Source: Candidatus Fermentithermobacillaceae bacterium
GTDB lineage: Bacteria; Bacillota; Sulfobacillia; Fermentithermobacillales; Fermentithermobacillaceae
Assembly (NCBI GenBank): GCA_012841375.1
Contig: DUUV01000095.1
Coordinates: 1 to 52,330, forward strand
Reading direction: 5' to 3'
Length of the DNA stretch: 52,330 nt
The notes under the pieces were generated by a model that worked only from the letters and a program-made list of their open reading frames with translations, had not been told where the DNA came from and made no database searches. Shown here in pieces: positions 1,153 through 16,053 of the stretch. Each line of letters starts with the position of its first letter. Position 1 is the first letter of the stretch. The position numbers were made by a program, and so were the translations under genes.

Positions 1153-1256
1153 AGGTCCTTCCGCAGGCTTTGGGCCTACAGGGGGGAGAGGACCAGCGGA
1201 GCCATTACATAACCAAAAGACAGACAAGGCCTTGAGCCGGTGGGAGGCAGTCAAGT

Positions 1257-4200
1257 TTGAACCTTTCTGACAATGCTGTAGAGGTGCTGGAAAAGAGGTA
1301 CCTGAAGAAGGACGAAGCGGGAAAGCCCTTGGAGAGCCCCGCTCAAATGTTCTGGCGCGTCGCCAAGAACATTGCTCTCATGGATTTGCTGTATTACCCT
1401 GAGGTCTATTCCGGGCCGCAGGAACGACCCAAAAAGGTCCGGAGTGTTGCCGGTGCTCCCGAGAAGCCGGAAGTTGCCGCCGGGCACGAGTTCGCCATCT
1501 CCGAATGGGACTGGGCGACAGTCAAGATGGCCTTCGAGCGTCTGGAATCAAAGGGGCTCATGAAAGTCTCGTGGGATGATTTCAGGCAACTGGTGGAGTC
1601 AAAAAAGGACGAAGCCCGCGGGGTAGCGGTCAGGTTCTACGAACTCATGACCGAGGCCAAGTTCCTTCCAAATTCACCGGCCCTCATAAACGCCGGGCGG
1701 GAGCTCCAACAGCTTTCTGCTTGCTTCGTGCTGCCCGTTGAGGACTCGATGGGGAGTATCTTCGACTCCCTGAAGCATGCAGCTCTCATCCACCAATCCG
1801 GTGGTGGGACAGGCTTCAGTTTTAGCCGCCTAAGGCCCAAGAACGATGTCGTGAAGTCCACGGGCGGTGTGGCGTCGGGGCCAGTCTCATTCATGAAAGT
1901 GTTCAACGCTGCTACGGAAGCGGTCAAGCAGGGGGGTGTCAGGCGCGGGGCCAACATGGGCATCCTCCGTGTGGACCACCCGGACATACTCGAATTCATC
2001 ACCTGCAAGACAGATAATGCCGAGCTTACGAATTTCAACATATCGGTGGGCATCACCGAGAAGTTCATGCAGGCCGTGGAAGCGGGCGAGGACTATGAGT
2101 TGGTGAACCCGAGAAACGGCAAGATTACCGGGAAACTGAGCGCTCGGGAAGTCTTCGAGAAGATCGTCGACCAGGCCTGGCGGAACGGCGAACCGGGCAT
2201 CATCTTCCTCGACCGGCTGAACAGAGACAACCCCACTCCCGAGATAGGGGAGATCGAGAGCACAAATCCGTGCGTCGCCGGTGATACTCTTGTGTCCACC
2301 GAAATGGGCCTTATCCCTATCAGGGAAATAGCGGAGAGGTGGTCCACGGGAGGAGTCGGGGTAGCCATTGACCGGCGTGTCTCCCACGGTCGGATGGTCC
2401 GAGAAGGGACTTCGGGGACTGTTGTCGAGACGGTGACCGGAGTGGAAGTCGTGCCCCTGTCGAGGGCTTTCCGAACGGCTGTTAAGAACGTCATTCGACT
2501 CAAGACCAGACGTGGATACTCCATAGAGGTTACAGCCGACCACAAGGTTATGACGCCTCGAGGATGGGTGCCTGCCGGAAGCCTACGGCCGGGTGTGGAT
2601 TCGGTCCTTATTCAGTCCGGCGCCGGCAAGTTCAGCCTTGACCCATCGCTGCCGGTCCCGGTGAGGAACCTGAGGACCGGAGCCAATGGCCGTACATATC
2701 GAACCGATTTTCCGACAACCTGGTCCAGAGAGCTCGGCCTTACCTTAGGGTGGCTTGTCGGCGATGGTTGGCTCATTGACTCGGGGAAGAACTCTCGCGT
2801 TGGGTTCACCTTCGCTGAACAAGACCTCCAAGTCATGGAAACGGTTAAGTCGGCTCTGGACCGGTGGTACGGACCCGTGAAGCCCGTGAGGCGCAAGAGC
2901 GGCGTCTATCACCTCGGATATCACTCGAAGTCGGTGGTCGAGTTCTTCCAGAGCCTCGGGGTCAGGCCGCTAAGATCTGGCGACAAGAGAGTGCCCGAAT
3001 CACTCTTCAGGGCTACTCGCGAAGCGGTAGCCGGTTTCCTGCAGGGGATATTCACGGCCGGCGGAACTCTGGCGAGCCAACAGAACGGTACGGCCTATGT
3101 CGGGCTTACCTCGAAGTCCAGAGCTCTCCTTGAGGATGTGCAGATCCTCCTTCTCAACCTTGGGATCCTGTCAACCATCTATGACAGATCCAGGCCTCTT
3201 CGGAAGTCCTTCGCCTACAAACCCGTTCGTGGCTCTGAGAGAGTGTATGTGACTGACGGCATGTTGTACGAACTCCAGGTGAGCGGAGATAACCTGGGAT
3301 GCTTTATCGATGAAGTGGGGTTCGCCGATGACCGCTTCGCTCGGGAGATCGGATCGCTGAGAAGACGGTCAAGAGGGTTCTACAGTCAGCCGTACGTTGA
3401 TACTGTCGAGTCCCTCGAACCTGTCGGCGAAAAAGAGGTCTTCGATCTGACCGTACCCATCAGCCACTCCTTCATAGCCAACGGAATCGTCGTATCCAAC
3501 TGCGGAGAGCAGCCGCTCTTGCCCTATGAAGCCTGCTGCTTGGGGTCAATCAACCTAGGCGCTTTCACGAAGTCGGTGTGGGGGGCGAAGGAGAGGCCCA
3601 AGTCGCTGAGCGACAACATCGACTGGGCCGGACTCGGCAAGGCTGTCCGGGCAGGCGTGCATTTCCTAGACAACCTCATTGACGCCAACAAGTACCCGTT
3701 ACCTGAGATAGATGAAATGGCTCACGGCAACCGGAAGATCGGCTTGGGTATCATGGGCTGGTCCGACATGCTCCTTGACCTCGGCATACCTTACTGCTCC
3801 GAAGAAGCCCTGGAACTGGCCGAAAACGTGATGGGCTTCATTGAGCAGGAGTCGGTGAAAGCCTCCGTGGAACTGGCAAAGTCGCGAGGGACTTTCTCGA
3901 ACTACGGGAAGAGTGTCTTCGCGGCACAGCAGAAGCCTGTGAGAAACGCCACCACTACGACAATAGCGCCGACCGGGACCATCAGCATCATCGGGAGCGC
4001 CTCATCCGGCATTGAGCCGTTGTTCAGCATCGCTTTCACCAGGCATGTCCTGGACAAGAAGGCTCTCGTGGAAGTGAACCCCCGGTTCGAACGGGTGGCG
4101 CGCACCCTCGGGTTCTACAGCGACGGGCTGATGGAGAAGATCGCCCACCACGGATCTCTCGGCGGGCTCGACGGCGTTCCCGAGGAAGTCCGAAGGGTCT

Positions 4201-5030
4201 TCGTGACTGCCCATGACATAACGCCGGAGTGGCACATTAGGATGCAGGCCGCGTTCCAGAAGTACACGCACAACGCGGTATCCAAGACGGTCAACTTCCC
4301 TAACGAAGCCACCCGGGACGAGGTCAAGGAAGTGTTCATCCTTGCCAACAAGTTGGGCTGCAAGGGTGTCACCGTGTACCGCGATGGAAGCCGTAGCGAG
4401 CAAGTGCTTACTGTTGGCGCTGACAAGCAGGCCCAGGGCGACGGTACGGGGGCTCAGCCCCAGACAACCGGTCAGCTTTTCCCAGATCCTCACGAGACAC
4501 ATGGCAAGGCGAAGATAAACGGAGTGTGGGGCCATATTAAGCCCATAGAAAGGCCCATCCGTTTGGACGGCTTCACTGCCGCCAAGGAAACGCCTGTAGG
4601 CAAGCTGTTCCTCACTCTGAACGCCCTGAACGGCCATCCGGTGGAGCTCTTTGCCCAGATCGGTAAAGCCGGCAGCGACATATCTGCGTTCACCGAGGCC
4701 ATAGCCCGGCTGATATCAACCGCCCTTAGATCCGGCGTGGATCCTCAGGAGATCGCCGACCAGCTCTTGGGAATAGGCGGTTCTCGAGCGATTGGATTCG
4801 GACCAAATCGAGTTCGCTCCGTGCCGGACGCCATAGGGCAGTTCCTCGACGAGTACCTGAGAGGCTCCGCTGATCAGGAAGAGGACGAAGAGGACGCAGG
4901 GCCCATACAGGATTCTCTGCCCTTGGCGCCGGGTAAGAAATTTGGATTGTGTCCTCAGTGCGGCACCTGGAACCTGATCCATGTCGAGGGATGCGCCAAG
5001 TGTCTGGCTTGCGGGCACAGTGAGTGTTAG
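1257..5030 (+). CDS. nrdJ: Adenosylcobalamin-dependent (class II) ribonucleotide reductase with in-frame intein
   Basis: Class II ribonucleotide reductase, which makes deoxynucleotides with a B12-generated thiyl radical and no oxygen requirement. The 1257-residue precursor holds an N-terminal part (1-338), an intein (339-748) and the C-terminal part from Cys749. Recognisable blocks are the FLPNSPALINAG and HQSGGGTGFSFS stretches, NAELTNFNISVG, the split NP/CGEQPL active-site motif, the ATTTTIAPTGTISII phosphate-binding loop, a TSCPD-type region near 1060-1190, and a Cys-rich redox tail (CPQC, CAKCLAC). Without the intein it would be about 847 residues, normal for NrdJ. The start is TTG 1257, with GGGAGG at 1242-1247. 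The excised intein must restore the radical cysteine, so activity depends on splicing. Confidence 0.95.
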   Translation: MNLSDNAVEVLEKRYLKKDEAGKPLESPAQMFWRVAKNIALMDLLYYPEVYSGPQERPKKVRSVAGAPEKPEVAAGHEFAISEWDWATVKMAFERLESKGLMKVSWDDFRQLVESKKDEARGVAVRFYELMTEAKFLPNSPALINAGRELQQLSACFVLPVEDSMGSIFDSLKHAALIHQSGGGTGFSFSRLRPKNDVVKSTGGVASGPVSFMKVFNAATEAVKQGGVRRGANMGILRVDHPDILEFITCKTDNAELTNFNISVGITEKFMQAVEAGEDYELVNPRNGKITGKLSAREVFEKIVDQAWRNGEPGIIFLDRLNRDNPTPEIGEIESTNPCVAGDTLVSTEMGLIPIREIAERWSTGGVGVAIDRRVSHGRMVREGTSGTVVETVTGVEVVPLSRAFRTAVKNVIRLKTRRGYSIEVTADHKVMTPRGWVPAGSLRPGVDSVLIQSGAGKFSLDPSLPVPVRNLRTGANGRTYRTDFPTTWSRELGLTLGWLVGDGWLIDSGKNSRVGFTFAEQDLQVMETVKSALDRWYGPVKPVRRKSGVYHLGYHSKSVVEFFQSLGVRPLRSGDKRVPESLFRATREAVAGFLQGIFTAGGTLASQQNGTAYVGLTSKSRALLEDVQILLLNLGILSTIYDRSRPLRKSFAYKPVRGSERVYVTDGMLYELQVSGDNLGCFIDEVGFADDRFAREIGSLRRRSRGFYSQPYVDTVESLEPVGEKEVFDLTVPISHSFIANGIVVSNCGEQPLLPYEACCLGSINLGAFTKSVWGAKERPKSLSDNIDWAGLGKAVRAGVHFLDNLIDANKYPLPEIDEMAHGNRKIGLGIMGWSDMLLDLGIPYCSEEALELAENVMGFIEQESVKASVELAKSRGTFSNYGKSVFAAQQKPVRNATTTTIAPTGTISIIGSASSGIEPLFSIAFTRHVLDKKALVEVNPRFERVARTLGFYSDGLMEKIAHHGSLGGLDGVPEEVRRVFVTAHDITPEWHIRMQAAFQKYTHNAVSKTVNFPNEATRDEVKEVFILANKLGCKGVTVYRDGSRSEQVLTVGADKQAQGDGTGAQPQTTGQLFPDPHETHGKAKINGVWGHIKPIERPIRLDGFTAAKETPVGKLFLTLNALNGHPVELFAQIGKAGSDISAFTEAIARLISTALRSGVDPQEIADQLLGIGGSRAIGFGPNRVRSVPDAIGQFLDEYLRGSADQEEDEEDAGPIQDSLPLAPGKKFGLCPQCGTWNLIHVEGCAKCLACGHSEC
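2271..3500 (+). mobile_element. Intein with LAGLIDADG endonuclease domain inside nrdJ
   Basis: A 410-residue intein (residues 339-748 of the precursor). It begins with Cys339 (CVAGDTLVST, block A), has a block B TADH motif, and ends FIANGIVVSN, with Cys749 as the +1 nucleophile. Two LAGLIDADG-type helices are visible: LGWLVGDGWL with acidic Asp503, and FLQGIFTAGGTL, where the expected second acidic residue is Gly602. The penultimate residue is Ser and not the usual His. Splicing residues at both ends are otherwise intact. Inference: splicing is probably still active, while homing endonuclease activity is probably lost. The insertion is at the conserved NP/C site next to the thiyl-radical cysteine, a recurrent intein site in NrdJ proteins. 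Confidence 0.93.
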
Positions 5031-5401
5031 TCCACGGTTCTTTTCCGGTTCTTCTCTGACGGCCGGTGTTGTACCGGTCTAGGAATCGGATGACCGGAGG
5101 CGCGTCAGCGGGCGAAGAGATGAAAACGGGGAGCAGACTGCTCCCCGTTTGGTTCTTGATGGATTGGTCGAATGAAGTGTCGGCCGGGCGGCGGAGAAGT
5201 CGAACCTTGCCGGCTTGGACCACCCGGTCAGATACCGTGATCTCTCGCATATCCTGGTTACCAGAGTCACCAAGGTCCCCCGCCGTCGATCGAGTAGTCA
5301 GACAAGTGGCACTTGGGCATGGATAATCAATTTTATTCCAGAAGGAAACTGCGTATTGACGGCGAAATGTCAGAGACACAAAACTGGAAGGAGGTGACGT
5401 A
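5031..5401. other. 371-bp gap between nrdJ and the membrane cluster
   Basis: No credible gene. It holds the nrdJ terminator (5124-5150), a GC-rich stretch with several short inverted repeats around 5180-5245, and an AT-rich segment (5320-5340) just before the strong ribosome-binding site of the next gene. A GATAAT at 5322-5327 could serve as a -10 element, but no convincing -35 sits at the right distance. The promoter of the membrane cluster must lie here, but I cannot place it. Confidence 0.5.
5124..5150 (+). terminator. Rho-independent-like terminator after nrdJ
   Basis: A near-perfect inverted repeat, AAACGGGGAGCAG then CTGCTCCCCGTTT, separated by one base, ending in a short T run. It lies about 95 bases after the nrdJ stop and separates it from the membrane cluster. 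The A-flanked and T-flanked arms would let it work in both directions. Confidence 0.75.
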
Positions 5402-6175
5402 ATGTCAATCGTCAGCGGTTACAGTTTCGCGTTTTGGGTGGAACTCGTTTATCTGGCTGCGGTGATCGTCATGATCACAAGGGCCCGTGGCGGCATCAAG
5501 ATCCCTGAGATCTACAAGGTCGCGGGTCTTGAGGCTATGGACGAGGCCATCGGGCGCTGCACTGAGATGGGGAAGCCGGTGCACTTTTCTCCCGGTATCG
5601 GCGACCTGCAGAACGCTCAGACGCTCGCCGCCATGTCTATCCTCGGATACGTGGCTAAGCAGTGCGCGCGTTATGACACGGATCTCATCGCCACCAACAG
5701 GAACGTCATTGTCTACCCTCTCTCAGAGGAAATCGTGAAGCAATCCTATGCCGAGATCGGCAAGTTGGACAGCTTCAAGCCCGACAACGTCCGCTGGATC
5801 TCAGACGACCAGTTCGCCTATGCCACCGGCGTTACCGGTATCATGTTCCGCGAGAAGCCCGCTGCCAACATCCTCGTTGGAGCGTTCTGGGCTGAATCCT
5901 TGATCTTCGCGGAAGTCGGCTCCATCGCCGGCGCCATCCAGATCTCGGGTACCGCCAACACCCACCAGATCCCGTTCTTCGTAGCCGCTTGCGACTACTG
6001 CCTCATCGGTGAGGAGCTTTACGCTGCCAGCGCTTACCTAAGCAAGGAGCCCGTGCTTCTCGCCAGTCTGGTCGCTCAGGACTGGGGCAAGATGGTCGGA
6101 GTGGTCCTTATCGTCATTGGCACCATCATGTTCAGCGTTGGATCTGATTCTCTCAAGGTTCTGCTCTCCAAGTAA
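5402..6175 (+). CDS. DUF6754-like membrane-anchored protein, first gene of membrane cluster
   Basis: A 257-residue protein that I recognise as DUF6754-like; the function is unknown. One hydrophobic helix is near residues 8-26 and another near 231-248, flanking a soluble or membrane-associated domain. The domain has the conserved-looking stretches LEAMDEAIGRCTEMGKPVHF and PGIGDLQNAQTLA, then a hydrophobic, small-residue-rich part (VGAFWAESLIFAEVG, AGAIQISGTANTHQIPFF). There are no recognisable catalytic or nucleotide-binding motifs. ATG 5402 is preceded by an almost perfect GGAAGGAGGTGA at 5386-5397, implying high expression. It leads four co-directional genes with short gaps (27-49 bases), so a membrane complex is likely. 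The third gene has the same helix-domain-helix plan. Confidence 0.8.
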   Translation: MSIVSGYSFAFWVELVYLAAVIVMITRARGGIKIPEIYKVAGLEAMDEAIGRCTEMGKPVHFSPGIGDLQNAQTLAAMSILGYVAKQCARYDTDLIATNRNVIVYPLSEEIVKQSYAEIGKLDSFKPDNVRWISDDQFAYATGVTGIMFREKPAANILVGAFWAESLIFAEVGSIAGAIQISGTANTHQIPFFVAACDYCLIGEELYAASAYLSKEPVLLASLVAQDWGKMVGVVLIVIGTIMFSVGSDSLKVLLSK

Positions 6176-6224
6176 CCCATGTTCCTTGTCCTAGACCGGC
6201 TCAATCCGAAAGGAGGTGTACCGG

Positions 6225-6866
6225 ATGAAAAAGGAGATACCGGTAGCGATTACCCTAATCCTGGCAATCCTCTATGTGGCAGCCAACTACTTCACGGGAG
6301 TGTCGTTCCTTGAGACTACCAAGAATCTCTTGGACCAGTGGTTTCTGATCGTAGCCGCCTGGGCGGTGCTCGTCGGTTCGGTCAACCTGACCCAGATCCA
6401 CGGCCGTAAGGTAGCTGCCAAGCGGGAAGGATGGTTCTACAGCGCCTGGCTGATAGCTTGTCTATACGGAATGATGTTCTTCGGCATCTTCGTAGCCAAG
6501 AATGCATCATATCCTGGTTGGACTTTCATGTACAACCAGCTCATCGCTCCAATGAACGCTACTGTCTATTCCACCATAGTGTTCTATATCGGCTCGGCCG
6601 CTTACAGAGCCTTTAGGGTACGTAGCCCTGAAGCGTCGGTCCTTCTAGTCACGGCTCTAATCATGATGCTAGGTCGCGTGCCGTTGGGCAGAATGCTGCT
6701 CGGCGGAAATCCAGCTCTTTCGCAGATGGCTGACTGGATTCTGAACGTGCCCAACTCAGCGGGTATGCGAGGCATCCAGGTCGGCGCCTGCTTGGGAGGC
6801 GTGGCGACCGCTCTTCGTATCGCTCTTGGAATCGAGCGCGGCCACTTGGGTGGCACGGGTGAATAA
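6225..6866 (+). CDS. Polytopic membrane protein, second gene of cluster
   Basis: A 213-residue integral membrane protein with about five or six predicted helices (roughly residues 4-22, 37-56, 72-92, 112-130, 138-157 and a weaker one near 185-200). I do not recognise a family. Small-residue and Arg motifs (MMLGRVPLGRM) sit near the fifth helix. ATG 6225 is chosen because AAAGGAGG lies at 6209-6216, an ideal spacing; the in-frame GTG 6216 falls inside that site and is unlikely to be used. It follows the DUF6754-like gene by 49 bases and precedes the third gene by 27. Its helix pattern resembles the fourth gene, so the two may be related membrane subunits. Confidence 0.82.
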   Translation: MKKEIPVAITLILAILYVAANYFTGVSFLETTKNLLDQWFLIVAAWAVLVGSVNLTQIHGRKVAAKREGWFYSAWLIACLYGMMFFGIFVAKNASYPGWTFMYNQLIAPMNATVYSTIVFYIGSAAYRAFRVRSPEASVLLVTALIMMLGRVPLGRMLLGGNPALSQMADWILNVPNSAGMRGIQVGACLGGVATALRIALGIERGHLGGTGE

Positions 6867-6893
6867 CACTCCACGATAAGGAGGTGAATAAGC

Positions 6894-7727
6894 GTGTGGG
6901 AAAAGCTCGCGAACGTTGATAGGCGTTGGATCTACGCCTTGATGATATTCGTTATCGCGCTCGCCCTGATTAAGCCCATCGGTCTTGCCATCGTACCTTC
7001 GGCCGATACCCAGAAGGTATATGACATCATCGAGAACCTTCCTCGCGGAAGTATCGTGTGGATGGGGATGGAGTTTTCGGCAGGCGGCATTCCCGAGCTC
7101 ATGCCGGCCCTCCAGTCCATGATAAGGCAAGGCTTCAAGGAGGGGCGTGACCTTAGGTTCGTGTGCGCCGGGATGTGGCAGATGGCCGGTGACATGGCTG
7201 ACCAGGCGTTCAGCATTGTAAAGGAAGAGTTTCCTCACAAGCAGTACGGGGTCGACTGGGTCAACATCGGTTATAAGCCCGGCGGAGACGTTCTCCTTCA
7301 GCAGTATCAGAACAGCATCATAGAAACTGCTAAGGGAGTCGACTTTTACGGAGATGATCTCAGTCAGTTCCCGCTCATGAAGGAATTTACCAGCCTGAAG
7401 CAGGCCGAGTTGGTGGCCATCTTCTGCACCGGTACTCCCGGTGAGAAGGAATATATCAAGCACGTGACCAGCCCCAACAAGATCCCGTTGGTGGAGGCTG
7501 CTATTTCGGTTAGTATTCCCGAGTGCATGCCCCTTGTCCAGGCAGGCCAGATCAGTGGCCTCTTGGCCGGGATGAAGGGTGCCGCCGAGTACGAGGTCTT
7601 GGTAGAGAAGCCAGGCTCGGCTACTGCAGGTATGGACGCTCAGTCGTTCTCTCACGCTCTCATCATAATCTTCATGATTCTTGGTAACCTGGGCTATGTG
7701 TTTACCAAGAACAAGAAGGAATCATAG
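6894..7727 (+). CDS. Membrane-anchored protein with alpha/beta domain, third gene of cluster
   Basis: A 277-residue protein with one N-terminal helix (about 14-34), a large domain (about 40-245) and one C-terminal helix (about 254-272). The domain looks alpha/beta in pattern (GSIVWMGMEFSAGG, RDLRFVCAGMW, AELVAIFCTGTPG), with a run of Gly-rich turns. I recognise no named family and no metal- or nucleotide-binding motif. The start is GTG 6894 behind AAGGAGGTGA (6878-6887). The plan helix-domain-helix matches the first gene of the cluster. Both also have an N-x-x-IP motif followed by an acidic, small-residue helix near the C-terminal end of the domain, so distant paralogy is possible. A role in the same complex is inferred from layout only. 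Confidence 0.82.
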   Translation: MWEKLANVDRRWIYALMIFVIALALIKPIGLAIVPSADTQKVYDIIENLPRGSIVWMGMEFSAGGIPELMPALQSMIRQGFKEGRDLRFVCAGMWQMAGDMADQAFSIVKEEFPHKQYGVDWVNIGYKPGGDVLLQQYQNSIIETAKGVDFYGDDLSQFPLMKEFTSLKQAELVAIFCTGTPGEKEYIKHVTSPNKIPLVEAAISVSIPECMPLVQAGQISGLLAGMKGAAEYEVLVEKPGSATAGMDAQSFSHALIIIFMILGNLGYVFTKNKKES

Positions 7728-7758
7728 CGGGTTGACATCCTGAGGAGGTGAAACAGAA

Positions 7759-8391
7759 ATGTCCGAAACTGCTCTTACGGTGGGGACTTGGCTTCAGGCC
7801 TTCTTCACTATCGTCTTGGTTTCCGCTGTCTTCAAGGACAACCCGCTATACCGGTTCGCTGAGCACACCTATGTAGGGCTCTACGCCGGCTATGGAGTCG
7901 CGCTCACGTACTTCAACTATATCCGCCTGAACGTCACGACGGATATAGCGAAAGACGGCAAGTATATCGTGCTTGTGCCCATCATCATCGGTCTGCTCAT
8001 CTACACCCGGTATATAAAGTCCATCTCGTGGCTTAGCCGGTACACCATCTGCTTCCAGTTGGGTATCGGTTCAGGGTACGTCCTTGCCAAGGACTTCAAG
8101 CCGTTTTTCGTGGACCAGGTCAGGGCAACGTTCCTACAGCTCTGGGGAAGCGGAGACTGGTGGGTAGATGTCTCCAACTGGATCTACGTTATCGGCACCG
8201 TCTGTTCCTTGGTCTACTTCCTGTTCACGATCCAGAAGAAGGGTTTCCAGGGCAGGGTCTCTATGGTCGGTCGCTATACAATGATGATAGCGTTCGGCGC
8301 CGCCTTCGGAAACACCGTTATGGCTCGTGTATCGCTCTTCTTGGGTAGGATGCAGTTCCTCTTGGGAGACTGGCTGCACCTAATCAAGTAA
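7759..8391 (+). CDS. Polytopic membrane protein, fourth gene of cluster
   Basis: A 210-residue integral membrane protein with about six helices (near 8-24, 38-56, 72-88, 92-110, 138-158 and 170-190). I recognise no family. A short segment near residues 110-135 (DFKPFFVDQVRATF, GSGDWWVDVSN) links two halves. The C-terminal helix has the pattern MMIAFGAAFGN followed by ARVSLFLGRM, loosely like the second gene. ATG 7759 follows GAGGAGGTGA at 7742-7751. It ends the cluster: a strong hairpin terminator starts 18 bases after the stop. The order small-domain protein, polytopic protein, small-domain protein, polytopic protein suggests a duplicated two-gene module. Confidence 0.82.
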   Translation: MSETALTVGTWLQAFFTIVLVSAVFKDNPLYRFAEHTYVGLYAGYGVALTYFNYIRLNVTTDIAKDGKYIVLVPIIIGLLIYTRYIKSISWLSRYTICFQLGIGSGYVLAKDFKPFFVDQVRATFLQLWGSGDWWVDVSNWIYVIGTVCSLVYFLFTIQKKGFQGRVSMVGRYTMMIAFGAAFGNTVMARVSLFLGRMQFLLGDWLHLIK

Positions 8392-8409
8392 CGGTCTATC
8401 TGGAAGATG

Positions 8410-8433
8410 GGGCGGCAGAGAGATCTGCCGCCC
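8410..8433 (+). terminator. Terminator closing the four-gene membrane cluster
   Basis: A perfect 10-bp stem (GGGCGGCAGA with TCTGCCGCCC) around a GAGA loop, followed by a T-rich stretch. It sits between the convergent ends of the membrane cluster and the PHP-domain gene and could serve both. Confidence 0.85.
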
Positions 8434-8487
8434 TTGTTCATGTCGGAATGAGTGCGGCGCCTGGCTCATGCTCGGCACGTACTCCCT

Positions 8488-9303
8488 CTACTTCCGCTTC
8501 CCCGACACCACTTCTTCCCACGGGGCCGTGCCCCGGAAGCCCGCCTTCCTGGCCAGTTCCTCGCCTTCCTTGATGTTGAGCCCAACCCAGCTGGGACGGT
8601 GAGCGTCCGACCCGACGACAGGCGGCCTTCCTCCCATCTCGCGGTACATCTCGAGAAACCGGAGGGAGGACCACGCGAAATGTCCGTCTCTGTTCAGCAT
8701 CGCCAGGTTGATCTCCATGCGCGAGTGCTCGGCGATGGCCTGTACGGCTTTCCGGGCAAGGGGAGCGACTGTCGGGTGTGAGAACGGGTCTGGCCACATG
8801 CCGGGGAGGTAACGCTCGTACACGTCGATATGCGCGATAATGTCAAACATCCCCGATCGAGCAGCGCCTAGAAGCTCGGTGAAGTACCAGGCAAGCGCCT
8901 GGACTCCCTTCTCCGGATCGCGCTTTAGGAGCTCTCCCGAGCGAGGGTCCCACCAGTCTACCGGAGGAGAGTCGTGGATTGAACCGATGACCACGTCGAA
9001 CTCGTGCGCCCCGAGGAACCTCCGGACCAGAGCGTTGTACTCCATCCTGTAGCCCACTTCCACTCCCAGGAGGATCTTCAACCTGCCTTCGTATGCCGCG
9101 GCCGCTTCCAGTACGGCCTGCCTGTAAGCTTCGTAGGAGCGGCAGTGGGGGCTCACGAAGCCGAACCCGGTCGGGTCTATCTCGGCGTGGTCGGTGATGG
9201 CGATGGCATGTAACCCGCGTTGCAGCGCGACCTCCAGGACCTTGGCAACCGGCGTTGACGAGTCCGGTGAGCAGTGTGTATGAGTGTGAAAGTCTGAGCT
9301 CAA
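8488..9303 (-). CDS. PHP-domain phosphatase, histidinol-phosphatase (HisJ/HisK-like) family
   Basis: A 271-residue PHP-domain hydrolase. Metal-binding motifs expected of the family are visible: HTHTHCSPDS at residues 6-15, AITDHAEI near 35-42, GVEVGY near 80, GSIHD near 107, IAHIDVY near 155 and VGSDAHRP near 230. Length and order of motifs match HisJ-type histidinol phosphatases, which dephosphorylate histidinol phosphate in histidine synthesis. No other his genes are nearby, so a different phosphoester substrate is possible. The start is TTG 9303, with a GGGGGT run upstream. It is divergent from the aldolase operon. Confidence 0.85.
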   Translation of the reverse strand: MSSDFHTHTHCSPDSSTPVAKVLEVALQRGLHAIAITDHAEIDPTGFGFVSPHCRSYEAYRQAVLEAAAAYEGRLKILLGVEVGYRMEYNALVRRFLGAHEFDVVIGSIHDSPPVDWWDPRSGELLKRDPEKGVQALAWYFTELLGAARSGMFDIIAHIDVYERYLPGMWPDPFSHPTVAPLARKAVQAIAEHSRMEINLAMLNRDGHFAWSSLRFLEMYREMGGRPPVVGSDAHRPSWVGLNIKEGEELARKAGFRGTAPWEEVVSGKRK

Positions 9304-9411
9304 GGATGCACCCCCTGCATATGTGAAACCCTGTCAAAGTTTATCATTTGCGACGCTTCACAAGAAGGACTTCCAGCGCGCGCAGAGAACTCTACCCTGG
9401 CGAACACGATA

Positions 9412-9436
9412 TGAAAAAGAGTTTCACTAGATGAAA
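9412..9436 (+). promoter_or_regulatory. Candidate IclR-family (KdgR-like) operator
   Basis: Three half-sites alternate with 5-bp spacers: TGAAA (9412-9416), TTTCA (9422-9426) and TGAAA (9432-9436). The middle half-site forms a perfect palindrome with each neighbour. TGAAA-N5-TTTCA is the geometry of the known KdgR site of the IclR family. The element ends 16 bases before the first aldolase codon, in an operon that encodes an IclR protein, so autoregulation is the natural inference. Confidence 0.5.
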
Positions 9437-9452
9437 ATGTAAGGGGGTATAG

Positions 9453-10340
9453 GTGTTGATCAAAGGTATCTTCGCACCCATAGCTACGCCGTTTGTGGAC
9501 GGGGAGATATCCTACGACCATTTGGCCAAGAACATCGCCAAGTGGAGCGAGACGGGTCTGGCGGGACTTGTGGTCATGGGATCCAACGGTGAGGCGGCCT
9601 ACCTTGATGAAGACGAGAAGGTTGAGATGTGGGCTTTCGCAAGAAAGCACATGCCTTCGGAGAAACTGCTTATCGCCGGAACGGGCCAGGAGAGCACTCG
9701 GGCGACAATCCGGCTCACCAAGAAAGCCGCCCAGGCCGGTGCCGGTGCCGCGCTTGTCCTGAGCCCGAGTTACTTCAAAGCCAATATGACTCCGGCTGCT
9801 CTGGAGCGGTTCTACTCCGACGTGGCCGATGAGTCGCCAATACCGGTACTTATCTACAACATGCCGGGCAATACCGGGGTGAACCTGACCTCTTCACTGG
9901 TAATCCGGCTGTCGACCCACCCGAACATCGCAGGAGTGAAGGACTCGAGCGGCAACATAGTGCAGATCTCGGAGACTATCGCCGGATCGCCCGACGACTT
10001 CTCGGTGTTTGCAGGGTCGGCCAGTTTCCTCTTGCCCGCCACCGTGATGGGCGCCAAAGGAGGTACCCTGGCCACGGCCAACGTAGTTCCTGACCTGTGC
10101 GTCAAGATATTTGAGCTGGCTCTGGAAGGCAAGATCGAGGAAGCCAGGGAGAGCCAGCGCAGCATCTTGAGACTCAACACCCTCGTCACGGCAAAGTACG
10201 GGGTGGCGGGCCTTAAGGCCGCTCTTGACATGGCAGGTTACTTCGGAGGCGACCCGCGAAAGCCCATGCTGCCGGCGAGTGATGAAGCAAGAGCCGAAAT
10301 CAGACAGGAATTGGAGAAGCTCGGCCGTGCCGTCCGGTGA
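9453..10340 (+). CDS. DapA/NAL-family aldolase, possibly 4-hydroxy-2-oxoglutarate aldolase-like
   Basis: A 295-residue class I aldolase/lyase of the dihydrodipicolinate synthase superfamily. The Schiff-base lysine lies in AGVKDSSGN, the catalytic Tyr in LIYNMPGNTG, and the substrate-binding loop reads GSNGEA. True DapA enzymes usually have GTTGE; GSNGE is what I recall from 4-hydroxy-2-oxoglutarate aldolase (HOGA1), which yields pyruvate and glyoxylate. The downstream aminotransferase, of a glyoxylate-using family, fits that reading. Keto-deoxy-sugar acid aldolase is the main alternative, given the KdgR-like operator. The start is GTG 9453 or TTG 9456, behind AGGGGGT. The next gene starts five bases after the stop. 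Confidence 0.85.
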   Translation: MLIKGIFAPIATPFVDGEISYDHLAKNIAKWSETGLAGLVVMGSNGEAAYLDEDEKVEMWAFARKHMPSEKLLIAGTGQESTRATIRLTKKAAQAGAGAALVLSPSYFKANMTPAALERFYSDVADESPIPVLIYNMPGNTGVNLTSSLVIRLSTHPNIAGVKDSSGNIVQISETIAGSPDDFSVFAGSASFLLPATVMGAKGGTLATANVVPDLCVKIFELALEGKIEEARESQRSILRLNTLVTAKYGVAGLKAALDMAGYFGGDPRKPMLPASDEARAEIRQELEKLGRAVR

Positions 10341-10344
10341 GAGC

Positions 10345-11094
10345 ATGACCACCGTCGCTGCAGTGAAGAAGGCTGTTGACGTGCTCCTGGCGGTCAGCCA
10401 AGGGCCGGAGCCCGTGTCCCTCTCACAAGTGGCGCGGAAGGCCGGCGTCCCTATAGCGACCGCTCGCCGCCTGCTGCTCACTCTCGTTGAGGCCTCGCTT
10501 TTGCGCAGAGAAGGCAAAGGGTATTCCCTTGGGGTGAGGGCCTTTGAGATAGGGAAGAGGGCCGAAGAGCGGATCGACCTCATTGATGTCGCAAGGCCTC
10601 ACCTCCGGAGGCTCTCGGACGAGACGGGCGAGAGCGCCAACCTTGCCGTCTTGGACGGAACCGATGTCATATATCTGGCTTGCGAAGAATGTTCGAAGAT
10701 GGTGAGGGCGTTTACCGTATCCGGCGCAAGGGTGCCCGCTCACGCGACCGGTGTAGGAAAGGTGCTGCTTTCAGGCCTTGCCGACGAAGAGATTGAGGCG
10801 CGTTACAGCGAGGCGCCTCTCGTGAAGTTTACGGAGAAGACTGCCGGCACGCTGGACGACCTTCTCAAAGAGGTCCGAAAGGCACGGCAGCGCGGGTATG
10901 CTTTTGATGAAGGCGAAAGGGAAGATGGGGTGTTGTGCGTGGCGGCTCCGGTCAGGGAGTACAGCGGCCGGTTGGCCGCAGCAGTCAGCGTGTCCGGGCC
11001 GTCGGCCCGCCTTCAACGTCAGAGGACGGCAACGCAAAAGAAGACGCTGGAATGCGCGTCTGCCATCTCTCGCCACCTGGGTTGGAGGGCGTAG
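10345..11094 (+). CDS. IclR-family transcriptional regulator
   Basis: A 249-residue IclR-type regulator. Residues about 5-60 form the winged helix-turn-helix (SLSQVARKAGVPIATARRLL, then GYSLG), and about 75-245 the effector-binding GAF-like domain (LRRLSDETGESANLAVLDG, AHATGVGKVLLSG, DEGEREDGVLCVAAPV). ATG 10345 gives the normal family length and lies five bases after the aldolase stop; the upstream part of the open frame runs inside the aldolase gene and is not used. It is probably the local regulator of the aldolase and aminotransferase, binding the TGAAA-N5-TTTCA site at 9412-9436. The effector is likely a small keto acid, unproven. Confidence 0.9.
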   Translation: MTTVAAVKKAVDVLLAVSQGPEPVSLSQVARKAGVPIATARRLLLTLVEASLLRREGKGYSLGVRAFEIGKRAEERIDLIDVARPHLRRLSDETGESANLAVLDGTDVIYLACEECSKMVRAFTVSGARVPAHATGVGKVLLSGLADEEIEARYSEAPLVKFTEKTAGTLDDLLKEVRKARQRGYAFDEGEREDGVLCVAAPVREYSGRLAAAVSVSGPSARLQRQRTATQKKTLECASAISRHLGWRA

Positions 11095-11148
11095 GCGGGG
11101 ATAGCGGGTCGTGACAAAGTCGTAACAAAATAGAAGGGAGAATCTAGA

Positions 11149-12255
11149 GTGAACCAAAGGAACCCAAAGTCAAAGCTCCTACTCGGACCGGGGCCATCCA
11201 ACACGGACCCTCGAGTCCTGCGCGCTCTCTCAGAGCCTACGCTCGGGCACCTAGACCCTGAGTTTGTGGCCATCATGGATGAGACGACAGAGCTCCTGAG
11301 ATACGTGTTCAACACCAAGAACAAGCTCACCATCCCGGTTTCGGGCACAGGGTCTGCCGGAATGGAGACCGCCATCGTCAACTCGGTTGAACCCGGCGAC
11401 AAAGCCATCATCTGTACGGCCGGTGTCTTCGGCGAGCGGATGGTTGACGTGACGGAGAGAGCGGGCGCTCAGGTCGTCAAGGTTGAGTCTCCCTGGGGCG
11501 AGCCCATCGATCCTGAAGACGTGAAAAAGGCGATCCGCAAGAACCCCGACGCCAAGATCCTCGGTATCGTCCACGCCGAGACCTCCACGGGTGTGCTCCA
11601 GCCTTTGGACGAGATCGCGGCGATGGTCCATGAAGCCGGTATGAGGATTGTGGTTGACGCGGTCACTTCCTTGGGTGGAGTAGATGTCCCCACCGATAGG
11701 CTGCAGCTTGACTTTGTCTACTCGGGCACACAGAAGTGCCTGAGCTGCCCGCCGGGACTGGCCCCGATCACCCTAGGCGAGAAGGCCTTCGAGTTTATCC
11801 AGAACCGCAAGACCAAGTGCCAGAGCTGGTACCTAGACCTGGGTATGATCCAGAGATATTGGGGGTCGGAGCGATTCTACCACCATACCGCCCCCATCAA
11901 CATGATATACGCTCTCAACGAGGCCCTCAGGATCATCAAGGAGGAAGGTCTTGAGGCCCGCATCAAGAGGCACAAAGCCGCTCAAGAAGCCCTCATTTCA
12001 GGGCTTGCCGCTCTGGGTCTCAAACCCGTGGTCAACGAACCCTACAGGTTGCCGAGCCTTACCACGGTCTATGTGCCGGAAGGAATTAATGAGGCCGCGG
12101 TCCGCAAGCAGCTTCTGGATGAGTTCGGCATCGAGATCGGCGCAGGCCTGGGAGTATTCAAGGGCAAGGTATGGCGAATAGGGATGATGGGCACCAACGC
12201 CAACAGGGCTAACGTCATCCGGCTCCTGGGCGCTTTGAAGGATATCCTCGGATAA
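11149..12255 (+). CDS. Class V aminotransferase, alanine/serine-glyoxylate type
   Basis: A 368-residue PLP-dependent aminotransferase of the alanine-glyoxylate / serine-glyoxylate / PucG group. The start LLLGPGPSNTDPRVL is typical. Other signatures are GTGSAGMETA, VHAETSTGV, VVDAVTSLGGV and the PLP lysine in SGTQKCLSCPPG. These enzymes move an amino group from alanine, serine or ureidoglycine to glyoxylate. With the upstream aldolase it could convert glyoxylate to glycine. No purine-degradation genes are near, so PucG proper is less likely. The start is GTG 11149 with GAAGGGAG at 11133-11140. It ends the operon; a hairpin follows. Confidence 0.88.
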   Translation: MNQRNPKSKLLLGPGPSNTDPRVLRALSEPTLGHLDPEFVAIMDETTELLRYVFNTKNKLTIPVSGTGSAGMETAIVNSVEPGDKAIICTAGVFGERMVDVTERAGAQVVKVESPWGEPIDPEDVKKAIRKNPDAKILGIVHAETSTGVLQPLDEIAAMVHEAGMRIVVDAVTSLGGVDVPTDRLQLDFVYSGTQKCLSCPPGLAPITLGEKAFEFIQNRKTKCQSWYLDLGMIQRYWGSERFYHHTAPINMIYALNEALRIIKEEGLEARIKRHKAAQEALISGLAALGLKPVVNEPYRLPSLTTVYVPEGINEAAVRKQLLDEFGIEIGAGLGVFKGKVWRIGMMGTNANRANVIRLLGALKDILG

Positions 12256-12269
12256 CCGTATGAAGGAGT

Positions 12270-12306
12270 CCGGCGGCCGGTTTCCCTATGGGGACCGGTT
12301 CGCCGG
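12270..12306. terminator. Bidirectional terminator-like hairpin
   Basis: A long GC-rich imperfect hairpin: CCGGCG pairs with CGCCGG and CCGGT with ACCGG, with a small loop around TATG. It lies between the convergent aminotransferase and helicase genes and is likely to stop transcription from both sides. Confidence 0.65.
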
Positions 12307-12312
12307 GCTTCT

Positions 12313-14412
12313 CTATCTTCGGCCTCGTGTTACCGCTTCCGCGACATCATCCAGGTCAAAGGTAAGTCTAGCCGGAGGAAGGCTCTGGAGTATCACTCTT
12401 CCGTAGCGCTTTGTGGCTATCCGGGGATCCAGGATCACTACCGCGCCCCGGTCGGTTTTCGAGCGGATCAGCCGTCCGAACCCCTGCTTCAGCTTGAGCG
12501 TCGCCACGGGTAAGGAGTAATGGATGAAAGGCACAAGGCCTTGGCTGCGCCAAACCTGTTCCCGGGCTTCCATTATCGGGTCGTCGGGCACGGGGAACGG
12601 CAGTTTTGTGATAACAACGCATGATAGCGCGTCTCCGGGGATGTCGACGCCCTCCCAGAACGAATCCAGGCCGAAGAGGACGGCGTTGCCCTTATCCTTG
12701 AAATCACGGAGCAGAGCATCTCGCGGGCCGTCACCTTGTTTCAGAAACGGATATCCCTTTTCCTCAACCCGGTCCCGCACAAGCTCGGCTACCCGTTCCA
12801 TGGACCTTCTGTTGGTGAAGAGGACGAACATCCGCCCGTCCGTCATCCCGGCGATCTCCAGCACCTTCTCGGCGATGTAATCGCCGAAAGGCAGGCTGTT
12901 CACGTCCAGCCCCCTGCTGTCTTTGGGGATGCACAGCCGGGCCTGTTCCCGGTAGTTGAAGGGCGAGCCGAGGATGAGCTCCCCGGCGCCCTCCAGAGCG
13001 AGCATTCTCCTTTGATACTCGAATGAGGACCCTGTCGCCAGAGTAGCCGAGGTCAGGACGGCCGCAGGCAAGCTGGACCACAACGTTTCCTGAAGGTACG
13101 ATCCTACCTCCAGCGGCGCCTTTTTCAGGACGACGTGTCCCCTCCTCATCCCTTCGATCGACTCCGCCCAGTAGACATGGGACTCTCCGTCGCCCTCAAG
13201 GTTGGATATGCTGGTAAGGTCCTGCGACAAGGCCGTGAAGCGCCGCTTGAGGGATGAGACTTCGAACCTCTCTTCGTCTGAGAGATCGAAGTCCTCCCAG
13301 TACTGGATCTCTTTCCCGAACTCCCTGATAGACTTGATTATATCCGGGTCGAAAGAACCGCCGTCTCTGAGCCTGGCCTTGTCTTTTCTTGCCGAGCGGA
13401 CGGGATTAAGGTCCTCTAGGATGCTGTTTATGGCCGCCACCCTGTTGTCCAGCGCATCACGGAGGCGCCGGATCCCTTCTCTCGTGATGCTCTTGCCGAT
13501 AGCCCCGCTCCTTGCCATGCGCACGGTATCGTCTACGAGGCGTTTCAGTCGGCCAGGGCTGACCTCCGTCCCCATGCTGTCGCGGATCGCGTCCTCCAGG
13601 TGGTGGGCCTCGTCGAAAATGACCGCCTCATACCCTGGGAGAAGACCGGTATGGCCGCCGCTCTGGTTCCATATCGCCAGGTGCGCCGCGAACAGGGCAT
13701 GGTTTACTACGATGATATGACACTCCTCCAGGCGCCTCCTGCGCTTCTGGTAGAAGCAGAACTCCCTGTTGGAGCACTTGGAGGACATGCACCGGTCGCC
13801 TTCGGAGCATATCATCGACCAGACCGAATCGGGGACAGGGGAGGGGAGGCGCTCACGATCGCCGTCCCAAGACCCGCCGGCGGCCAACTCATATATATCC
13901 TGGACTGCCTTTTCCTCGGCGTTGGCGACGAAAAGCGAGGTGGTCTGGGCGACATCTTCGCAGGCCTGCTTTAGGCGCCGCAGGCAGACGTAGTGGCCGC
14001 GGCCTTTCATGTACGAGTACCGGAGGTCGAACCCGGATTCTGAGAGGAGGTCCGCTACCATCGGGATATCTTTGTTCACCAGTTGCTCCTGGAGGTTCAC
14101 CGTTTGGGTGGATATCACTATCCTCTCGCCCGTCTGGCGACACCAGAGGGCAGACGGGAAGAGGTAGGCCAGGGATTTCCCGATACCCGTACCGGCCTCG
14201 ACCATGAGATGAGACTTGGCGACCAGTGAGTCCCACACCGCCAAGGCCATCTCCAATTGCTGGGGACGCTCCTCGAAGTCGCCGACTTTCGAAGCGAGGA
14301 GACCGCCTTGGGAAAAGGCGGCTTTGATGATGTCTTCGGGTTCACCCTCAAACGCTGTCAGTCGCTCCGGCACCAAGAGTCCCCTTACCCCCTCCTGTAG
14401 CGCTAAGAGCAT
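12313..14412 (-). CDS. DinG/XPD-family ATP-dependent DNA helicase
   Basis: A superfamily 2 helicase of the DinG/XPD group, up to 699 residues. Walker A is EAGTGIGKS and Walker B is FDEAHH. Between them lie four cysteines (CLRRLKQAC, then CSEGDRC and CSNREFC) of the kind that hold a 4Fe-4S cluster in this family. Motifs V and VI appear as FWEGVDIPG and QGFGRLIR. The likely role is DNA repair or replication-conflict resolution. No N-terminal exonuclease domain is present. The start is uncertain: ATG 14412 lacks a Shine-Dalgarno, while GTG 14373 has AAGGGGA just upstream, which would give 686 residues. It lies 48 bases after rsgI on the same strand. Confidence 0.9.
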   Translation of the reverse strand: MLLALQEGVRGLLVPERLTAFEGEPEDIIKAAFSQGGLLASKVGDFEERPQQLEMALAVWDSLVAKSHLMVEAGTGIGKSLAYLFPSALWCRQTGERIVISTQTVNLQEQLVNKDIPMVADLLSESGFDLRYSYMKGRGHYVCLRRLKQACEDVAQTTSLFVANAEEKAVQDIYELAAGGSWDGDRERLPSPVPDSVWSMICSEGDRCMSSKCSNREFCFYQKRRRRLEECHIIVVNHALFAAHLAIWNQSGGHTGLLPGYEAVIFDEAHHLEDAIRDSMGTEVSPGRLKRLVDDTVRMARSGAIGKSITREGIRRLRDALDNRVAAINSILEDLNPVRSARKDKARLRDGGSFDPDIIKSIREFGKEIQYWEDFDLSDEERFEVSSLKRRFTALSQDLTSISNLEGDGESHVYWAESIEGMRRGHVVLKKAPLEVGSYLQETLWSSLPAAVLTSATLATGSSFEYQRRMLALEGAGELILGSPFNYREQARLCIPKDSRGLDVNSLPFGDYIAEKVLEIAGMTDGRMFVLFTNRRSMERVAELVRDRVEEKGYPFLKQGDGPRDALLRDFKDKGNAVLFGLDSFWEGVDIPGDALSCVVITKLPFPVPDDPIMEAREQVWRSQGLVPFIHYSLPVATLKLKQGFGRLIRSKTDRGAVVILDPRIATKRYGRVILQSLPPARLTFDLDDVAEAVTRGRR

Positions 14413-14460
14413 TCTACGGTTTGGGGGACTCCCCGCGCAATGCGCCTCATGAAGGAGTGG

Positions 14461-16053
14461 TCATTTCCATAACCTTTTGAAGAACTCAGAGGTCCACCTG
14501 AAACGGTCAGCCAGCGACGGGCTCTTCCAGTTCGAATCGCGAGACTCAGTGTATTCCCCGAAGAACGGCAGTGTCTTTCCGTCGCCGTCCTCAACCGCGG
14601 CGCCCTTGTTGCCGGGTCCGTCATTCTTGTCAGCTTTTCCGGGCTGGGTTTTTCCCTTACTCCCTGAGCTCTTTCCTTGGTCGGAACCTGTCTTGGACTT
14701 GTCGTCTTTACTCTTTCCGCCGTCCTTTTCTTCCTTGTTGGGACCCTGAGAACCGGGACTGCCCGGTTTCCCTTGGTCCTTGCCGGGATTTTGATTTCCG
14801 GTGTTGCCCTTGGAAGGGGCGTTGGTCTGGTTGGAGGGCTTTGGTTTTCCTCCGGACCCTTTTTCCCAGTCGTCGTCCTTCCGGTCGTCATCCTTCCGGT
14901 CGTCATCCTTCCGGTCGTCGTCCTTTGCCTTGTCGGATTTCTTGGACGCCTCCTTGAGCGCCTTGAGCCATTCCTTCGTGAGCTTTTCCAGCTCCTTAGA
15001 AGCCTTCTTGGAGTCGCCCTGGCGGTTCGTATCCCAATCGAACTCAGGTAGGCTATTCCGGATCATGTCCAAGAGGGCTTGGGCGTCTTCCTTCTTCTGT
15101 TGGCCGGGGGGAACTTTGTCGGGCTTTCCGGAACCTCCGGTTCCACCCGTCGTACCCGGTTGGCCGGGGTCGATCCACTGGCCCGGTTGGGTTCCCTGGG
15201 AAGGTTCGGTGCCTGTCCCTTGATGCGGGAATTCGTGTGGTGTGGTGGCGCCTGCCGGGTCTCCGGACGTACCCGGATCATCATCGCCGCCGGAGGGCTG
15301 GGATTCGCCCGGTTCGCTATAAATCTGATGCTCGCCCTGGCCGGGTGTCGGGTCGCTTTCCGGCTCTTTGGTTTCCCACATGGCCCACGAAGCGGCGCGA
15401 CCCGCAGAAAGTCCCAGTTCCTTGGCTACAGCCCTGGTCTCCATATCGAGGACAACTGCCTGGGCTTCTTTGACCGAGTCAAACACTTGCCGGGCAAGGT
15501 TTGAGATGCGGGACGATTGTACGCCGTCTTCGCCGATCTCGTCGACGCCCAGAGGCGTATGTTGATCGTCCGGAGTCGCGGGGATGAACGCTACAACGAC
15601 CTTCCCGCCGTTTGTCATTGCCTCCTGGAGGCGGGCGAGGACCGTCTGTACAGGTTGCATCTCTATCTTTAGCCCAGTGAGGGCCTGGGCCCCGGCTTCA
15701 TCCAGGGCGACGGCCTTTTTCACCAGGCCGCGGTCGTTTACCTCAAGCTCGACGCTTCCCGGGACTTCTCCGGATGAGTCGAAAGTCACGTAGGCCAGGA
15801 CAGGACGGGCGTATAGATAATGCCGGTATCCAAAGAAAGACCCAAAAATGAGAACGACGGCGAGAGCAGCTGCCGGGACCAATCTGTGCCAAAACAGCCC
15901 TTGAAACCGCGGCGAGGGCACCAAAACCTCTTCGCCCGGCATGAGGTCGCCCCGGTCTCTCCAAGTCACGAACTCACCGCTCTTGGTGATCGCGGTCACC
16001 TTGTTGCCGTACCGCTTCACCACCAGCCCGCGTCTTTCGCTCAACTTCCTCAC
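14461..16053 (-). CDS. rsgI: RsgI-type anti-sigma factor with low-complexity C-terminal region
   Basis: A 530-residue membrane anti-sigma factor. Residues about 5-50 look like the RsgI N-terminal domain (GLVVKRYGNKVTAI, GEEVLVP), which holds SigI inside the cell. One helix (about 58-78) crosses the membrane, followed by the extracellular RsgI domain (about 85-230: VELEVNDRGLVKKAVAL). From about 240 to 500 it is low-complexity Gly/Pro/Asp/Lys, including four RKDDD-type repeats encoded by a 15-bp repeat near 14877-14930. No carbohydrate-binding module is seen. The Asn-Pro autocleavage motif known from characterised RsgI proteins appears to be missing; the aligned region reads GEVPGSVE. The start is GTG 16053, 12 bases after sigI, so the two are co-transcribed. 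Confidence 0.85.
   Translation of the reverse strand: MRKLSERRGLVVKRYGNKVTAITKSGEFVTWRDRGDLMPGEEVLVPSPRFQGLFWHRLVPAAALAVVLIFGSFFGYRHYLYARPVLAYVTFDSSGEVPGSVELEVNDRGLVKKAVALDEAGAQALTGLKIEMQPVQTVLARLQEAMTNGGKVVVAFIPATPDDQHTPLGVDEIGEDGVQSSRISNLARQVFDSVKEAQAVVLDMETRAVAKELGLSAGRAASWAMWETKEPESDPTPGQGEHQIYSEPGESQPSGGDDDPGTSGDPAGATTPHEFPHQGTGTEPSQGTQPGQWIDPGQPGTTGGTGGSGKPDKVPPGQQKKEDAQALLDMIRNSLPEFDWDTNRQGDSKKASKELEKLTKEWLKALKEASKKSDKAKDDDRKDDDRKDDDRKDDDWEKGSGGKPKPSNQTNAPSKGNTGNQNPGKDQGKPGSPGSQGPNKEEKDGGKSKDDKSKTGSDQGKSSGSKGKTQPGKADKNDGPGNKGAAVEDGDGKTLPFFGEYTESRDSNWKSPSLADRFRWTSEFFKRLWK

Follow-up and report, generated by a model that had tools for sequence, protein, structure and literature searches.

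A conserved DUF6754 four-gene cassette of Bacillota and archaea, possibly an inverted duplication kept in separate genes

Inverted duplication is regarded as the basis of many transporters, often with both halves joined in a single chain. In the Rnf/Rsx complex, the six-span subunits RnfA and RnfE have opposite orientations, and membrane cysteines of the Rnf-type six-span pair ligate an iron-sulfur centre; the RnfC subunit carries a barrel-sandwich domain. Here, we describe a cluster of four genes at positions 5402-8391 of a 52,330-nucleotide stretch of DNA (contig DUUV01000095.1 of assembly GCA_012841375.1; the whole stretch is called the window) from a Candidatus Fermentithermobacillaceae bacterium, and compare it with such systems. 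All four open reading frames (ORFs) lie on one strand with spacings of ~27 to 40 bases, and model confidence is given below as the predicted local distance difference test score (pLDDT).

Gene 1 (A), 5402..6175, + strand: DUF6754 protein of 257 amino acids (aa) (PF20539, E 1.2e-95); helix 8-29, six-strand Rossmann-like domain ~41-214, helix 217-245 (AlphaFold2 pLDDT 91.4)
Gene 2 (B), 6216..6866, + strand: six predicted transmembrane segments, N-in/C-in, from hydropathy and lysine plus arginine (K+R) bias
Gene 3 (A'), 6894..7727, + strand: helix 10-26, six-strand Rossmann-like domain ~37-236, helix 242-275 (AlphaFold2 pLDDT 92.2)
Gene 4 (B'), 7759..8391, + strand: six predicted transmembrane segments, N-out/C-out, from hydropathy and K+R bias

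Compared with Rnf/Rsx, the cassette is similar in that its partner protein shows weak RnfC_N matches. However, it has no redox subunits, and the columns richest in cysteine reach just 20% in gene 2 and 27.5% in gene 4. The predicted domains of genes 1 and 3 have structural matches, over nearly their whole length, among Rossmann-like domains of the Sir2, transhydrogenase domain III, and carbon monoxide dehydrogenase (CODH) epsilon type, but they are flanked by membrane helices, and no sequence relation to the solved chains was found.

As described in PMC3962082, the YdgE/YdgF, YdgQ/YdgL, and DUF606 pairs are antiparallel heterodimers of homologous membrane proteins; the products of these neighbouring genes have a fixed and opposite K+R bias, and most are listed with four spans. 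Genes 2 and 4 likewise show a fixed opposite bias, and their bacterial means of +5.6 and -4.0 are similar in size to the single values listed there. In contrast to the pairs described there (PMC3962082), genes 2 and 4 have six spans, their homology is doubtful, and each half comes with a separate Rossmann-like subunit.

Conservation and spread of the cassette

Gene 1 is a full-length member of DUF6754, scoring 319.9 bits against a cut-off of 27 over residues 11-251. The Pfam scan gave no family above cut-off for genes 2, 3, and 4, and the NCBIfam scan gave none for gene 3. The cassette is undescribed as a unit: the Pfam entry PF20539 gives no function and leaves genes 2-4 uncovered, and a literature search for DUF6754 found no paper. 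Two low-scoring assignments were dismissed, namely gene 1 as a methylthioribose-phosphate isomerase (NCBIfam, E 0.015, 14.4 bits against a cut-off of 528) and gene 2 as TMD0_ABC (Pfam, 19.4 bits, under the cut-off of 27). From the alignment with its relatives, gene 2 likely starts at the in-frame ATG at 6225 rather than at the GTG at 6216.

A census covered 75 loci picked from the own-genome, named-genome, and phylum sets, with one view per locus. It contained 51 complete cassettes in the order 1-2-3-4, 26 truncated by the end of a locus or contig, and three exceptions: two degenerate pieces in locus L035, plus an archaeal locus whose sequence contains unread bases. A stand-alone two-gene pair was looked for among the 75 loci, and none was seen. 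In L035, decayed bits of genes 1 and 4 (1273-2383) lie near a complete cassette and are likely a degraded extra copy.

The host genome is a 2.37 Mb draft. Searches with genes 1, 3, and 4 found seven, eight, and seven places, respectively, the window included. Nine other places were retrieved; taken with the window, they amount to four full cassettes, three that a contig end interrupts within or beyond the 5' part, and three interrupted likewise ahead of or within the 3' part. We infer seven cassettes for this genome, with the cut halves presumed to pair. Two further loci, L039 and L106, each hold two cassettes close together in the same direction.

The closest named relatives at gene 1 were Candidatus Fermentithermobacillaceae metagenome-assembled genomes, at 92-95% identity. 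Named genomes yielded 40 gene 1 loci, archaea among them (Culexarchaeum, Methanomethylicota, Bathyarchaeota, and Methanosarcinales). Within the phylum Bacillota, DUF6754 was present in 16 of 199 sampled genomes. Plasmid records searched with gene 3 gave no match.

When the four families are compared by their matrices of pairwise identity, the correlations are r 0.85-0.91. In Bacillota as in several lineages of archaea, the four genes remain together in one order and diverge in step. The intact order, the genomes with multiple copies, and the correlated divergence indicate that the cassette has been inherited and duplicated as a four-gene unit, and present-day duplication is that of the whole cassette, not of a two-gene pair. 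Genes 1-4 very probably encode one conserved four-gene complex.

Fold and sequence comparison of the two gene pairs

The earlier note on this locus, read by eye from the sequence, had proposed a duplicated two-gene module (A-B-A'-B') whose products form a pseudo-symmetric complex. Its plan of N-terminal helix, domain, and C-terminal helix for genes 1 and 3 was borne out in confident AlphaFold2 models, which were built on family alignments 37 and 35 rows deep and reached predicted template modelling scores (pTM) of 0.85 and 0.86, respectively, at the pLDDT values listed above. The order of elements was identical in both models: a membrane helix, a helix, six strand-helix units, and a long C-terminal membrane helix. 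Where the models differ, gene 3 has additional short helices, N-terminally and in the stretch from strand 3 to strand 4, and gene 1 ends in a last short helix.

The gene 1 and gene 3 domains also map nearly full-length onto the same solved chains. By VIA-align, transhydrogenase domain III (1d4o) matched gene 1 with Z 9.4, a root-mean-square deviation (rmsd) of 3.2, and 136 aligned positions, and gene 3 with Z 7.9, rmsd 3.8, and 144 aligned. For the CODH chain 9c0q_C, the values were Z 8.8, rmsd 3.1, and 132 aligned with gene 1, and Z 8.3, rmsd 3.0, and 136 aligned with gene 3. The best structural neighbour of gene 1 was the Sir2 chain 1ma3_A (Z 11.7, rmsd 3.3, 141 aligned), accompanied by many tied Rossmann-like rows. 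Foldseek without refinement returned only matches of low template modelling score for genes 1 and 3, with receptor chains among those of gene 3. The sequence search against solved structures found none for gene 1 and just two glutamate racemase chains for gene 3 (E 0.49 and 2).

Profile comparison by hhalign had been suggested as a check in the earlier note, and none of the six gene pairs gave a significant match. For each pair, the score was also compared with those of 40 decoys made of shuffled reversed 20-column blocks. The score of gene 1 against gene 3 (21.5) exceeded all 40 decoys (maximum 21.0), and no other of the six pairs did so. Cross-family hits between families 1 and 3 were in register for 55 of 62 family-3 members and for 40 of 68 in the other direction, mostly at the C-terminal helix; these counts are not independent because family members are related. 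In rankings against all ORFs, one gene can fill more than one row because loci overlap, and every score was sub-significant. Profile 1 gave family-3 members a median rank of 97, better than the 392 and 411 of the other two families. Profile 3 gave its best median rank to family 1 (226), but its top 50 held four members of that family against five of family 2.

The case for common ancestry of genes 1 and 3 is weakened at two points: the hhalign match itself is not significant (probability 1.49%, E 0.034), and Rossmann-like folds are very common, so that a shared fold need not mean a shared origin. The earlier note would have been refuted by a missing profile match together with differing folds; the first was observed, but the predicted folds of genes 1 and 3 agree element by element. 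On balance, we favour a shared origin of genes 1 and 3.

The equal helix number that had been read for genes 2 and 4 holds, as family-averaged hydropathy shows six hydrophobic segments in each. The profile check gave nothing further for this pair. The hhalign match was not significant (probability 1.00%, E 0.054), its score was reached by 23 of 40 decoys, and a reversed gene 4 outscored the true gene 4 against gene 2 (24.9 vs 18.8); each of these points speaks against a duplication that includes B. Cross hits were off the diagonal, with 3/40 and 17/70 in register. For profile 4, the outsider with the highest score came from family 2 (8.1 bits, E 0.48, sub-significant). Helices 1-2 of gene 2 often aligned with helices 5-6 of gene 4, which was taken as chance. 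We regard a shared origin of genes 2 and 4 as rather doubtful.

The two motifs that the earlier note offered as signs of homology were dismissed, being absent or non-equivalent across the families. An N-x-x-IP motif was found in neither gene 1 nor gene 3, nor in any of the 42 and 47 nonredundant members of families 1 and 3 (0/42 and 0/47). Gene 1 instead has N-x-x-x-I-P at 186-191, after strand 5, and gene 3 has N-x-I-P at 195-198, before strand 5, so these sites occupy different points of the fold and are not equivalent places. The Arg/Gly stretches likened in genes 2 and 4 sit on different helices, as MMLGRVPLGRM ends the fifth helix of gene 2 and ARVSLFLGRM ends the sixth helix of gene 4. 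Furthermore, the arginines of gene 2 vary: position 154 is Arg in 9/49 members, and at 159 Arg is outside the four commonest residues. In gene 4, R190 is Arg in 24/26 and R197 in 22/26. The A/A' half of the A-B-A'-B' proposal gains some support from the fold and from the score above decoys. The B/B' half has no sequence support, and with its score inside the decoys and its alignments off the diagonal, the duplication is unproved for B.

Predicted topology and the question of inverted halves

Topology was predicted by the positive-inside rule, with the bias taken as K+R in odd minus even loops. The bias of gene 2 was positive in all 70 aligned members (archaeal mean +8.1), and that of gene 4 was negative in all 40 (archaeal mean -4.2); the bacterial means are those given above. 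When the families were thinned to <70% identity, gene 2 was predicted N-in in 49/49 and gene 4 N-out in 26/26. For gene 1, the domain side was basic in 41 of 42 members in a first count, and in 38 of 42 with four tied in a second count. For gene 3, the first count put the greater basic charge on the tails in 29 of 47 members, with seven tied and 11 against; the second, with tighter windows, gave 36, five, and six, respectively.

The gene 1 domain is thus predicted to be cytoplasmic and the gene 3 domain extracytoplasmic. Taken together, the K+R patterns of genes 1 vs 3 and 2 vs 4 predict that the members of both pairs are inverted relative to each other. Several features count against this reading. 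The topology of gene 3 is not unanimous (11/47 against, then 6/47), and helices 2, 4, and 6 of gene 4 are weakly hydrophobic (mean hydropathy 1.06, 1.17, and 1.29), so that one miscounted helix would flip its predicted orientation. We nevertheless consider opposite topologies within both pairs probable. This argument was absent from the earlier note, and our analysis suggests that it is the strongest one for a pseudo-symmetric complex.

The main alternative is that no ancient duplication took place and that four unrelated genes came together to encode one complex, with genes 1 and 3 sharing a common fold set between two anchoring helices and genes 2 and 4 sharing a helix count. The lack of a significant profile match in any of the six pairs fits this alternative, as do the 2 vs 4 score inside the decoys, the failure of the proposed motifs, and the Rossmann-like matches to very many unrelated chains. 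It does not readily account for the identical order of elements in genes 1 and 3, both flanking helices included, for their score above 40/40 decoys, for the in-register similarity of their C-terminal helices, or for the matched opposite topologies of both pairs. We hold it to be a serious possibility, if short of an even chance.

Partner proteins, neighbourhoods, and possible function

A MutL-like ASKHA protein and a barrel-sandwich-type protein adjoin the cassette in L044, L045, L071, L098, L099, and L100, which cover both domains of life. The cassette-side ATPase matches the GlmL/MutL family of glutamate mutase accessory proteins (PF13941, E 4.7e-119). It differs from GlmL in its length of ~600 aa and in a score of 213.9 bits against the NCBIfam GlmL cut-off of 475. 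Among the 199 phylum genomes, the cassette and the barrel-sandwich protein occurred together in 14, the cassette only in two (one of them 78% complete), the protein only in one, and neither in 182. Co-occurrence of the barrel-sandwich protein (15/199) with DUF6754 (16/199) gave a Fisher P of 1.6e-18, which overstates independence because the phylum genomes are related. MutL by itself is common, a match of some kind being present in 99 of the 199 genomes.

In the host genome, five of six MutL copies adjoin a barrel-sandwich-type protein. On contig C77, a small membrane protein sits ahead of one such pair and aligns with the cassette-upstream protein of L044 and L045 at 23% and 30% identity; the arrangement looks as if the cassette had moved away. 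On contig C154 (L127, ~4932-15660), two MutL-like and barrel-sandwich pairs surround an ABC ATPase and FtsX-like permeases; hence, the association of these two proteins is not restricted to the DUF6754 cassette. At two other loci of the host genome, a protein of ~395 aa without a Pfam family follows the barrel-sandwich gene, in L125 (4368-5549, - strand) and L126 (3910-5094, - strand), and the two are alike by eye.

Grouping of the immediate cassette neighbours left 60 nonredundant proteins. The 43 of them that were scanned included amidohydrolases, peptidases (M24 and M42), gamma-glutamyltranspeptidase, a pyruvate/2-oxoacid ferredoxin oxidoreductase-type subunit, and housekeeping genes. On the 3' side of the window's cassette, a PHP protein is encoded on the opposite strand; next come genes for a DHDPS-family protein, an IclR regulator, and a class V aminotransferase. 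Elsewhere in the window, positions 1236-5030 (+ strand) encode a ribonucleotide reductase large subunit (barrel domain), which is split by an intein carrying a LAGLIDADG endonuclease domain; a TSCPD domain comes after it. In two genomes with a single cassette, a small ORF immediately precedes gene 1 (L098, 6777-7049, 91 aa; L100, 7168-7467, 100 aa); the two are alike by eye, and no Pfam family was found for them. Three archaeal loci encode a carboxylase-type subunit upstream of their cassette (L052, 3706-5607, PYC_OADA; L053, 2106-4111; L050, 2-457), and L052 also holds a biotinyl domain protein.

As a working model, the products of genes 1-4 would form one hetero-oligomeric membrane complex, in which A-B and A'-B' would be two halves of opposite orientation, related by a pseudo-twofold axis that lies in the plane of the membrane. 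Together, B and B' would contribute 12 helices, which could form a path. The outer A' domain may take up a small ligand, and the inner A domain may release it or gate the path. The MutL-like ASKHA ATPase and the barrel-sandwich protein might energise or regulate the complex, and the paralogous cassettes of one genome, some beside genes of amino-acid or peptide catabolism, could be versions for different substrates. The inverted-half complex as an overall picture, function aside, is offered as tentative.

A genome with several paralogous cassettes, placed in catabolic settings that vary, would fit substrate-specific transporters. This is offset by the diversity of the neighbours, housekeeping genes included, which makes the transport reading weak. 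Transport is the likeliest function, though we see a little less than an even chance for it. The full proposal is improbable as it stands, namely a duplicated and flipped two-gene module that represents an undescribed class of substrate-specific transporters, which a MutL-like ASKHA ATPase, together with a barrel-sandwich adaptor, drives or gates.

Two other functions were weighed against transport. The cassette may encode a membrane enzyme or an electron-transfer or energy-coupling complex, whose inner domain binds a nucleotide or cofactor, with an RnfC-like partner and a MutL-like activase. Such a function is suggested by the Sir2, RCK, and transhydrogenase domain III chains among the structural neighbours of gene 1 (Z 11.7, 9.9, and 9.6), by the weak RnfC_N matches of some members of the barrel-sandwich family (E 0.007 and 0.0012), and by the upstream carboxylase subunit and biotinyl domain protein of L052. 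However, genes 2 and 4 have no conserved cysteines for iron-sulfur centres, the topology prediction places the Rossmann-like domain of gene 3 outside, where nucleotide is not expected, and the carboxylase linkage occurs in one archaeal group only; we judge this function unlikely. A sensor or regulator, in which an RCK-like cytoplasmic domain of gene 1 gates a gene 2/4 channel on ligand, would agree with the RCK domains (MthK and GsuK) and, for gene 3, TrkA among the structural neighbours. Their Z values are tied with those of many other Rossmann-like folds, though, and the Pfam and NCBIfam scans matched no channel family. Uptake of specific substrates would account at least equally well for the large number of paralogs next to catabolic genes, and a sensor appears very unlikely.

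If the inverted-half complex is correct, four separate genes with same-fold domains on opposite faces of the membrane would represent an inverted duplication in the unfused state. DUF6754 and the long MutL-like proteins next to the cassette would also gain a first hypothesis.

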